This document shows positions 30,572-33,056 of a DNA stretch of 64,000 bases, piece by piece (the first letter of the stretch is position 1; the number at the start of each line of letters is the position of its first letter). The notes beneath the pieces are model-generated. The model saw nothing but the letters and a program-made list of their open reading frames with translations. It searched no databases and was not told the DNA's origin. The stretch is from Campylobacter showae (GTDB taxonomy: Bacteria; Campylobacterota; Campylobacteria; Campylobacterales; Campylobacteraceae): the NCBI RefSeq assembly GCF_900573985.1, contig NZ_UWOK01000001.1, positions 124,001 to 188,000 of the forward strand, in the 5' to 3' direction. The position numbers and the translations under genes are program-made.

Positions 30572-31369
30572 TCAATCTAACTTATTAATATCCAAAATCC
30601 TACGCCTAAAAAGGTCAAAATTCGCGTCGAGTTCGCTTTTACGGTTTATAGAAATTTCTATAAATTCCCGCTCTTTTTCGATGCCGACGAATTTTCTCCC
30701 GAGTAAATTTGCCGCGATACCCGTCGTCGAAGAGCCGGCAAACGGATCGCAAATCATGCTATTTTCGTTGCTCGCCATCAATATAAGCCTTATCAAAAGA
30801 GAAAGTGGCTTTTGTGTAGGGTGCTTACCGCAAGCCTTTTCCCACGGCGCTATCGCAGGAAAGCTCCAAACGTCTTTCATTTGCTTATCGTCGTTTAGCT
30901 TTTTCATCAGTTCGTAGTTGAAAATATGCTTAAATTTCTCGCTTTTTCTTGCCCAGATTATTTGCTCGGTGCTATGCGTGAGGTATCGGCAGCTGAAATT
31001 TGGCGGCGGGTTGGTCTTTTGCCAAGTGATGATGTTTAAAATTTTATAGTCTAACTTTTGCAAAGCGCGCCCGATCGAAAAAATATTGTGATACGTTCCA
31101 CTTATCATTACGCTACCGTTGTCCGTGAGCGTATCTTTGGCAAGAGCGAGCCATCTGAGATTAAATTTATCTATCTCATCGATGCCGTAGCTTTTGTCCC
31201 ACTCGCCCTTGTTTACGCTTACGATTTGCCCGCTTTGGATGCTAAGCCCGTCGTTTGAGAGAAAATACGGCGGATCGGCAAAAATGAGGTCAAACTCTCC
31301 CTTAAATTTAGGCAAAATTTCAAAACAATCGCCTTTAAAAAGCTTAAAATCATCGGATAGCTTAAACAT
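30572..31369 (-). CDS. dpnA: DpnA-like (beta-class) N6-adenine DNA methyltransferase
   Basis: Predicted to methylate adenine in GATC and protect against the neighbouring DpnII-type nuclease. It is 265 residues. Catalytic motif IV is FADPPYFLSN near 30 and comes before the AdoMet motif I, DPFAGSSTTG near 208, the beta-class order. NIITWQKTNPPPNFSCRYLT and KHPTQKPLSLL match the DpnA type closely from memory. The start overlaps the last codons of the restriction gene by 8 bases, so its translation may be coupled to that gene. No DpnM-like alpha-class partner is visible. Confidence 0.9.
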   Translation of the reverse strand: MFKLSDDFKLFKGDCFEILPKFKGEFDLIFADPPYFLSNDGLSIQSGQIVSVNKGEWDKSYGIDEIDKFNLRWLALAKDTLTDNGSVMISGTYHNIFSIGRALQKLDYKILNIITWQKTNPPPNFSCRYLTHSTEQIIWARKSEKFKHIFNYELMKKLNDDKQMKDVWSFPAIAPWEKACGKHPTQKPLSLLIRLILMASNENSMICDPFAGSSTTGIAANLLGRKFVGIEKEREFIEISINRKSELDANFDLFRRRILDINKLD

Positions 31370-31718
31370 TTTTAAGCTCTTTTACGAAATAATGAAGCGT
31401 GGCAAGATTATAAATTTTAACGCTTTTGTAGGCCTCTTCAATCTTGTTTTTAGCGGCACGCCAGCCCTGTCCGTCCGTTATCCAGACAAATTTATATCCG
31501 CTGCAAAGCGAGATTTTTTGCGCTATTTCGATATAAGATCTTGCGACTTCATTTAGCTTCGAGCCGCCCGTGCTGTAAAAATTAGCTTCTATCAGATACG
31601 TTACGCCGCCCGCGGCTATAACGAAATCAAAAATCTTTTGATCGCTTCCTAAATTTAGAGGGAATTTTTTGCTGCTAACTTCAGTTTGAAAGCAGATATT
31701 TTCACTCTTTTTAAGCAA
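31362..31718 (-). pseudogene. C-terminal catalytic fragment of the DpnII-type endonuclease
   Basis: Open for 118 codons from an incidental ATG at 31718. It contains the PD-(D/E)xK-like core: FDFVIAAGG, then YLIEANFYSTGGSKLNEVAR and KFVWITDGQGW. Its first residues KSENICFQ duplicate the end of the inverted middle piece. No convincing ribosome-binding site precedes it, so separate expression is doubtful. Confidence 0.85.
31685..31715 (+). repeat. Left inverted repeat of the invertible segment
   Basis: Contains the perfect 14-base core CAGATATTTTCACT (31693-31706), extended outward by TTTGAAAG, which matches its partner except for the last base. Inward, CTTTTTAAG has three extra bases, a whole codon, relative to the partner, so recombination keeps the reading frame. 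In coding terms it encodes DIFT or, on the other strand, SENICFQ. Confidence 0.85.
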
Positions 31719-32033
31719 AATAAAGAGTGCTTTGATACGCTAAATTTGCTCATAGCCGTTCGAGATAAAAATACGGACGTAGTCGCGGCAAGCGGCAAAC
31801 TAACGAAGCTTGAAACATATTTTGAAAGTCCCGAAAAAATTTACGAGTTTTGTAAAGAAACGGGACTGGATAAAATTTTTATGGACGCAAAGATAAAGAA
31901 TTTGCACGATTACGTGTTTGGCGTGGAAGTCGGGCTCGATACGAACGCGCGAAAAAATCGCGGAGGCGTAAATTTCGTGCGAACGATTTCAGAGTATCTT
32001 AAAAGTGAAAATATCTGTTTTCAAATCCTTTGA
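31686..32033 (+). pseudogene. Inverted middle fragment of the DpnII-type endonuclease
   Basis: Plus-strand ORF, starting KADIFTLFKQNKECFDTLNL, with KIYEFCKETGLDKIFMD and YVFGVEVGLDTNARKNRGG, the part of DpnII between the N-terminal helical domain and the nuclease core. It ends YLKSENICFQ followed by three stray codons. Its ends repeat, in frame, the broken ends of the two minus-strand pieces (DIFT and SENICFQ). Confidence 0.85.
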
Positions 32034-32183
32034 ACCGAGTAAAAAATCAAGCGTGTGGAGCTTGATAGAAACGGCTTTTAGATTTTTGCCGCATTTTTCA
32101 AAGTCGGTAAAGTAGTCAAGGCTTGCATTTGTTTTTCTAAGCGAACGTAAAAAGTCATCGAATTTCGTTAAATTTGGTTCCAT
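31989..32183 (-). pseudogene. N-terminal fragment of the DpnII-type endonuclease
   Basis: 64 codons from ATG 32183: MEPNLTKFDDFLRSLRKT, YFTDFEKCGKNL, and LDFLLGSKDLKTDIFT, the DpnII N-terminal helical region. After the repeat core it runs into the inverted segment and stops within FKIL. AGGAAATTT before the ATG is a proper ribosome-binding site, so a short truncated peptide may be made in this orientation. Confidence 0.85.
31998..32025 (-). repeat. Right inverted repeat of the invertible segment
   Basis: AGTGAAAATATCTG (32004-32017) is the exact reverse complement of the left core. The outward TTTTCAAA (32018-32025) matches with one difference. The pair defines a segment of about 300 bp whose orientation decides whether the endonuclease frame is intact. 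Confidence 0.85.
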
Positions 32184-32190
32184 AAATTTC

Positions 32191-32382
32191 CTAAATTTCA
32201 GTTTTCGGCTCGTCCGCGATCGTCGCTTTAAAGTCCGCGCAGACGAAGTTCTCTGCACTCAAAACGATCTCACAATTTTCGTAAGCCGCCCGGACGATCT
32301 TACACGCTTCTTCTTTATTTTTCGCTTTAATAACGACTCTTCTCGCCGAGGTTTCGACGATCTCTACTTCAAATTCTTTCAT
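32191..32382 (-). CDS. dpnD: DpnD/PcfM-family small protein
   Basis: 63 residues, beginning MKEFEVEIVETSARRVVIKA, then NKEEACKIVRAAYENCEIVL and FVCADFKATI. This is the DpnD/PcfM pattern, a small domain named from the pneumococcal Dpn cassette, where its function is unknown. It stops 7 bases before the endonuclease start, so both are probably translated from one mRNA. Its presence supports reading this as a Dpn-type locus. Confidence 0.8.
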   Translation of the reverse strand: MKEFEVEIVETSARRVVIKAKNKEEACKIVRAAYENCEIVLSAENFVCADFKATIADEPKTEI

Positions 32383-32420: not shown

Positions 32421-33056
32421 CTAAATTTTTCTAATCGGCAGTCTAATTATCGTTTTGCATTTTTGCGGGTCGATTTTTCTAGGGTCGCTTAGGTAGATTT
32501 CGTGATGCGCTCTTTGCTCGCCAAAGTCCTTTGCATAGCCGTTTGCGGCGATAAACTCGTCTATTTTAGCAACACTCCCTGGCTCGTCGTCAAAGCTGCC
32601 TATGTGTAAAATTTGCGCACAAAGCCCCTCATCTATCGTCAAAAACTCCGTCGCGCCGCAGTCGATCTTTTTCTTTTTTGCGGCTTGCTCTACCGCCCAG
32701 TCGAAATTTTCTCGCGCGATAAAATCTGGCAGTCTAATCGCGCTAATCCAGCTAAAATCGCTCTTTCTAGCGTAGTCTGCCTCGCCGCAAGCCGAGCCGC
32801 TTTGCCGCCAAAATCCCTCTAACGGCGGTACGACGTATTCAAAAAGGCCATCTATTTTATAATCGGTTTTGTAGCTCATTTTTAGCGCGTAACTCACGGC
32901 GTAAAGTACCTCTATCGCACGCTGATACGCACCGCCGGACTCATTTGGGTCGCCTTCGCCACGGATACAAACGAAATTTGCGGGCGGGACGATTAAAATT
33001 TGCGGCGTCTGCTTTGGCGCATAAAGCTCTTTAAACTCTTTTTTAAAATCAAACAT
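32421..33056 (-). CDS. GyrI-like small-molecule-binding domain protein
   Basis: 211 residues, beginning MFDFKKEFKELYAPKQTPQI, followed by FVCIRGEGDPNESGGAYQRA and YVVPPLEGFW, a GyrI-like (SRPBCC/effector-binding) pattern seen in cytoplasmic stand-alone proteins. Its role is unknown. It ends 38 bases before dpnD on the same strand, so a promoter upstream of it could also drive the restriction-modification genes. Confidence 0.8.
   Translation of the reverse strand: MFDFKKEFKELYAPKQTPQILIVPPANFVCIRGEGDPNESGGAYQRAIEVLYAVSYALKMSYKTDYKIDGLFEYVVPPLEGFWRQSGSACGEADYARKSDFSWISAIRLPDFIARENFDWAVEQAAKKKKIDCGATEFLTIDEGLCAQILHIGSFDDEPGSVAKIDEFIAANGYAKDFGEQRAHHEIYLSDPRKIDPQKCKTIIRLPIRKI

Follow-up and report, generated by a model that had tools for sequence, protein, structure and literature searches.

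In this Campylobacter DNA, 313 bp in the middle of a gene for a DpnII-type restriction endonuclease appear to form a naturally invertible segment, whose flipping likely switches the nuclease off (the state found here) and on, and which is most probably turned by the recombinase XerH. We give this reading a probability of about 0.8. The window, by which we mean the whole 64-kb stretch of DNA that was analysed, most likely holds the OFF phase of an intragenic inversion switch.

The interrupted endonuclease gene and its neighbours

The whole endonuclease gene extends on the minus strand from 32183 to 31362, and only its middle piece lies on the plus strand. The features of the locus, in the direction of the gene, are as follows.

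32191..32382, minus strand: gene for a DpnD/PcfM-like small protein (PF14207), directly upstream of the endonuclease gene
32018..32183, minus strand: N-terminal piece of the DpnII-type endonuclease gene, with its ATG at 32183; it reaches the outer half of the N-side site
32006..32023, minus strand: N-side dif-like site, read on this strand as TGAAAA-CAGATA-TTTTCA; spacer 32012-32017
31699..32011, plus strand: inverted 313-bp segment between the spacers; the plus strand encodes the DpnII middle, in an open frame at 31686-32033
31687..31704, plus strand: C-side dif-like site, TGAAAG-CAGATA-TTTTCA; spacer 31693-31698
31362..31692, minus strand: C-terminal piece of the endonuclease gene, which carries the conserved D..ExN residues of the family
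30572..31369, minus strand: intact DNA methylase gene (PF01555), with an 8-bp overlap with the end of the endonuclease gene

The earlier note, made from the letters of this DNA, had described an endonuclease homologue in three pieces with the middle on the opposite strand, and had called it close to DpnII. Each piece alone matches the DpnII family, PF04556 (E = 1.8e-12 for the start, 2.1e-32 for the middle read on the plus strand, and 5.8e-34 for the end), so that the likeness is borne out as family membership of all three. Translated separately, the pieces contain no internal stops, and residues D186, E199, and N201 (numbering of the protein of genome G004) are invariant across 29 aligned proteins. 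The locus has the DpnII/MboI-type pairing of a PF04556 nuclease with an adjoining methylase, and methylation and cutting of GATC would be the specificity predicted from the family. Sequence searches of the PDB with two of the endonuclease gene pieces gave no match, nor did a search of the plasmid collection, and a scan for promoters and terminators stayed at chance level. An hsdS-type specificity shuffle was also considered and is ruled out, since no S subunit was found in the six frames scanned at the locus and a single DpnII gene is interrupted.

By eye, a gene similar in size and sequence to the DpnD/PcfM-like gene (32191-32382) stands at the same place in two other loci, L007 and L172. There, a gene of 234-237 aa lies upstream of it (137-841 in L007; 435-1148 in L172, where it falls between the DpnD-like gene and carB), and the window has a GyrI-like gene at the corresponding place (32421-33056) instead. 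At E 0.001, the L007 copy of the 234-237 aa gene matched nothing in Pfam or NCBIfam.

The structure predicted for the G004 ON protein is of moderate confidence (pLDDT 77, pTM 0.50), and its matches in the PDB are weak, the best being to BstEII (E = 3.8e-5). In this moderate model, one junction falls within a helix, near residue 57, and the other immediately precedes a strand near residue 164. The segment makes up the mostly helical middle of the protein (about residues 58-162) and does not include the conserved D..ExN region. If the model is right, the places of the junctions imply that the OFF arrangement would part the helical middle from the part bearing D..ExN.

Both orientations occur among close relatives

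With the intact G004 protein as query, the endonuclease gene was found in 12 of 48 genomes of the genus Campylobacter. Eight of these are OFF (G003, G017, G020, G023, G025, G031, G064, and G028, which is partial), three are ON and carry the sites (G004, G066, and G065), and one, G012, is ON without sites. The locus of G065 is split over two contigs and is ON at both junctions. Counting the window, there are thus 12 site-bearing Campylobacter loci, nine OFF (one of them partial) and three ON (two intact, one split); two further Campylobacter loci, L027 and L028, are ON without repeats.

Partners of opposite orientation can be nearly identical. Between G004 (ON) and G025 (OFF), the segment is the same at 311 of 311 positions in opposite orientation, with 147/166 in the N-terminal and 362/368 in the C-terminal piece; between G066 (ON) and G003 (OFF), the three pieces agree at 163/163, 310/313, and 369/370 positions. 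Such near-identical relatives, with the opposite orientation and an intact gene, indicate that the segment is naturally invertible. The earlier note had proposed that an internal coding segment flips to turn the nuclease on and off, the methylase being kept, and had named the lack of an intact form in relatives as an observation that would speak against it. The comparison of related Campylobacter assemblies shows that an intact form does exist and supports the proposal well. On a tree of the methylase (12 rows), the ON tips are scattered and require three changes of state, two of which are forced by well-supported branches, most inner branches being weak. This tree leaves aside G012 (188 residues aligned), L027 (no methylase in the DNA examined), and G028. 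The methylase can be aligned over 258-265 of its 265 residues in all 11 site-bearing loci examined.

Outside the site-bearing group, the arrangement is uniform: all 73 homologues in which three pieces could be recognised have them in colinear order. These were drawn from the best 80 of 383 confirmed stretches together with two homologues on viral contigs, both distant and colinear; L025, L040, and L091, in each of which one piece was not found, stand outside the 73.

Protein collections hold both forms too. Searched with the middle frame, they yielded 82 proteins, 28 of which have OFF-type ends (26 recognised by pattern; P0126 and P0132 by eye). Among the best 120 matches listed, both repeat-coded motifs are present in four ON proteins of full length (P0001-P0004), with P0006 as a fifth, incomplete one. 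These numbers should not be read as rates, since the length of a protein decides whether a given search admits it. The OFF-type P0132 is identical to the G004 ON protein at 112 of 113 positions. OFF genes appear in these collections as separate small fragments, some of them named DpnII-family nucleases.

Two proteins, P0122 and P0130, are ON/OFF hybrids; P0122 has the first 60 residues of the window's gene (60/60) joined to the middle as in ON (101/106), and an end as in OFF. A metagenomic contig, L023, ends (1-12) at a site with the letters of the N flank, and its inner N-side site is an OFF junction. Mixed populations or assembly may each account for the two hybrids and the L023 end, which are taken only as hints of mixed orientations, for L023 within the sample behind that contig.

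The repeats resemble dif sites, and exchange maps to the spacer

The segment is bounded by inverted repeats, for which the perfect core of 14 bases and the extension to 22 bases with one mismatch reported earlier are confirmed in the letters. The full arms, 31685-31709 and 32001-32025, are 25 nt long and 92% complementary. A chance repeat is ruled out, as the best inverted repeat at the locus scores 19 and the maximum in 600 dinucleotide shuffles is 15. The scores of G023 and G064 are 13 and overlap the top of the 73 control homologues (3/73 at 13 or more, the highest being 14).

In the site-bearing loci, every repeat reads TGAAAA-N6-TTTTCA, with at most small departures, and this architecture is that of chromosomal difH. 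Three of the four half-sites in the window match TGAAAA/TTTTCA fully, and the fourth, in the C-side site, has one change; one half-site is degenerate (TTAACA) in the group of G025, G004, G017, and G020. Two inverted half-sites around a six-base centre constitute the layout of the XerH/difH site (PMC5241119, PMC2731167), and XerH specifically reads the inner five bases of each arm (PMC5241119). The repeats described here have the two inverted half-sites, the 6-bp centre, and the inner GAAAA/TTTTC. Their outer arms differ from those of difH, GATTTGAAAA versus GTATTGAAAA in difH; the outer difH letters are thus absent, and the sites are therefore called dif-like and not difH itself. Chromosomal difH proper, TGAAAA-CTATAA-TTTTCA, is present in 10 of 13 genomes; two more have a CTGTAA centre, and the incomplete G028 has neither. 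The difH core found here is the same as in the sequences that Carnoy and Roten give for C. concisus and C. curvus (PMC2731167).

Allowing up to one mismatch, the dif-like pattern is matched in the 64-kb window by these two sites only, a count that is not significant alone because 16 of 100 shuffles also gave two or more (mean expectation 0.68). The exact motif coincides with one of the two DpnII sites in all eight site-bearing genomes searched. On the complete G004 chromosome (1.95 Mb), searched at three or fewer mismatches in total and a spacing within 5 kb, the DpnII-gene pair is the only inverted pair with equal spacers, and 55 control motifs with shuffled half-sites gave no inverted pair. 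One direct pair is also present at three mismatches. The uniqueness of the inverted pair depends on the cut-off, as four mismatches give four inverted pairs (three beyond the DpnII-gene pair) and three direct ones.

The exchange itself can be placed from the spacers and half-sites. Four spacer versions were seen, CAGATA, CCGATA, CAAATA, and CGGATA, none of which is the difH spacer, and the two spacers of one locus are equal in all 11 unambiguous loci (12 of 12 with G028, which was set aside from the count, its second site being at a contig end with the letters of the N flank). At the second spacer base, a substitution is silent (Thr) in one reading and in the other changes Cys to Gly or Arg. 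That spacer equality is kept despite an amino-acid change is as expected if the sites recombine. When ON loci are set beside their OFF partners, each flank is seen to retain its outer half-site (TGAAAA on one side, TGAAAG on the other), and the inner half-site (TTTTCA or TTAACA) moves with the segment. This places the crossover in a stretch of approximately 8 bp containing the spacer.

A second conserved dif-like site was observed near 1330-1400 of L181-L186 (genomes G025, G031, G023, G020, G003, and G001). It reads TTGTATTGAAAAC(T/C)AAACTTTTCAT in most of the six and TTATATTG in L184, and its outer left arm is that of difH. In L182 it lies between a gene for an iron-sulphur fumarate/succinate reductase-like subunit and a small phage-like gene (both by eye), and all six genomes have an integrase match about 8.5-12 kb away; perhaps it marks the end of an element that uses Xer. 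Exact dif-like motifs were also seen on small extra contigs, at G004:C3:10834 and 16166 (a contig of 36.9 kb) and at G020:C3:3083. Plasmid dif modules occur in other bacteria, and these motifs are possibly of that kind.

Coding constraint and possible decay in OFF copies

For nine chosen OFF-OFF pairs, from which the frameshifted G025 and G020 were excluded, dN/dS was calculated over the whole gene. Seven pairs gave ratios of 0.08-0.17 and two gave none (saturated dS). These values suggest that OFF lineages keep coding constraint, at a dN/dS of about 0.1, with the qualification that dS is saturated in several pairs and that the ratio averages over past ON time as well. Two of the nine OFF loci have frameshifts in the segment, length changes of 2 bp in L002 (G025) and of 1 bp in L004 (G020). 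The copy in the window has neither. With such frameshifts, some OFF copies would no longer be restored by flipping alone, which fits an OFF state that can decay or become permanent. The two length changes could be decay, a second layer of switching, or sequencing error.

The probable recombinase and alternative explanations

What, then, flips the segment? The dif-like character of the repeats points to XerH, the housekeeping recombinase of chromosome dimers, as the likely agent. A search of the site-bearing relatives for recombinases, as the earlier note had advised, detected XerH in 10 of 11 genomes, its copies being 89-93% identical to that of G017 (itself apart), and the G017 protein matches H. 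pylori XerH (5jjv) over its full length (E = 6.8e-95). XerH was not found in G028, a genome 68% complete, and comparison with the G017 copy revealed no XerH gene within the 64-kb window. Serine recombinases were detected in two of the eight site-bearing genomes tested, and a serine invertase is thereby ruled out as the common factor. In G004, G025, and G020, about 700-770 kb separate the locus from difH. The action of FtsK in E. coli is believed to centre on the region of the terminus, and the distance might therefore be raised as an objection to XerH. This objection is answered by H. pylori, in which displaced difH repeats far from the terminus were still recombined by XerH in an FtsK-dependent manner (PMC3325230). 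From its sites and its distribution, XerH is most probably the flipper of the segment.

An unlikely alternative flipper would be another tyrosine recombinase, XerT-like or a phage integrase, carried by mobile elements and able to recognise dif-like sites. Matches to PF00589 do number 2 to 17 in the eight site-bearing genomes searched, and the second conserved dif-like site has its integrase at 8.5-12 kb in six genomes. The number of such matches varies from genome to genome. However, XerH is present in 10 of the 11 site-bearing genomes, and G017 (91% complete) has the sites yet possesses only XerH and one short integrase unlike XerH; the rarity of serine recombinases speaks against that other class of flipper as well. 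It is very doubtful that the inversion reflects rare RecA-type or replication-slip recombination between short inverted repeats, without any dedicated recombinase. Any recombination between inverted repeats inverts, and such events could homogenise the arms, but the runs of perfect homology in the loci compared are about 9-17 bp, which is short for RecA. Moreover, the inverted pair of dif architecture is unique on the G004 chromosome at three or fewer mismatches, and the exchange maps to the spacer. XerH acting at dif-like sites is thus the reading that we retain.

Two other explanations concern the state of the gene. That the window holds a dead remnant, inverted once in the past and now locked OFF, would agree with the excess of OFF among site-bearing loci (9/12) and with the frameshifts in two of these; we regard it as quite improbable, given the purifying selection in OFF-OFF pairs, the existence of near-identical ON/OFF pairs, and the equality of spacers kept within loci. 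As for an intact gene wrongly assembled, assemblers can be misled where inverted repeats are short, and the P0122 and P0130 clusters and the L023 contig end do look hybrid. Eight other genomes nevertheless carry this inversion with identically placed sites, two of them assembled in few contigs (three for G020, two for G025), and we reject such an error, whose probability is negligible.

The proposed switch and its consequences

In the proposed mechanism, XerH, perhaps with FtsK, would bind the TGAAAA/TTTTCA half-sites and exchange strands in the six-base spacer; the outcome would be inversion because the two spacers point towards each other. The sites would double as codons, so that the gene and the sites could both work. 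OFF cells would make no complete endonuclease, and with it would probably lose cutting, but would keep the downstream methylase. A flip back to ON would then meet an already methylated genome, and since the methylase is untouched by the flip, the switch would act on the barrier against foreign DNA and leave the pattern of methylation as it is. It is reasonably probable that XerH, likely together with FtsK when the cell divides, has come to serve as a phase-variation invertase through dif mimics embedded in nuclease codons, turning cutting on and off with the methylome unchanged across oral and gut Campylobacter.

If this is true, a DNA defence is phase-varied without touching the epigenome, and OFF cells, in which the methylase stays, are open to foreign DNA and safe to switch back. 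A widespread cell-division recombinase would double as a phase-variation enzyme, with sites that are both codons and recombination sites. And because ON differs from OFF by one 313-bp flip, the costs and benefits of restriction in natural populations could be counted from reads.

Comparison with known systems

Inversion inside genes, inversion in type I specificity genes, and phase variation by Xer in Mycoplasma were all known already, going by the accessible parts of that literature. The titles and abstract openings in the literature on phase variation and Xer, a set with most subscription papers outside it, contain neither a type II nuclease gene split by a dif-like inversion nor a use of XerH for phase variation, and the accessible part of the Xer review (PMC5357621) mentions neither. 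A dif-like intragenic inversion in a type II nuclease is thus absent from the literature searched, to the extent just given. The earlier note's statement that it knew of no described case in this family agrees with that literature, with the reservation that the case may overlap the lists of Chanin et al. 2024 and Milman et al. 2023.

Those two studies reportedly describe intragenic invertons and gene-altering programmed inversions. The likeness is that the flipping segment, bounded by inverted repeats, lies entirely within a gene and its inversion alters the protein; the difference, so far as other papers' references to these studies allow a comparison, is that here the gene codes for a type II restriction nuclease and has dif-like repeats. 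The inversions of type I hsdS genes in pneumococcus and of hsd in Mycoplasma pulmonis, in the parts of that work available, likewise vary a restriction-modification system by DNA inversion. However, they exchange specificity subunits and change the methylome, whereas in Campylobacter one nuclease is split and the methylase is untouched.

Among Xer systems, dimer resolution by XerH at difH in Campylobacter and Helicobacter differs in how the sites are placed and in their letters: here two of them lie inverted within a gene, at a long distance from the terminus, and neither their spacers nor their outer arms are those of difH. Closer in purpose is the Vpma switching of Mycoplasma agalactiae by Xer1, in which, going by the part of that literature available, a Xer-type recombinase serves phase variation. 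The Vpma system has a recombinase of its own, which shuffles surface lipoprotein genes; here, in contrast, a housekeeping Xer is proposed, and it is a coding segment that would flip. Finally, the locus resembles other members of the DpnII/MboI family in having the PF04556 nuclease beside a methylase (PF01555) and a DpnD-like gene, and departs from the colinear order of the homologues outside the site-bearing group in that its nuclease gene is broken by the inverted segment.
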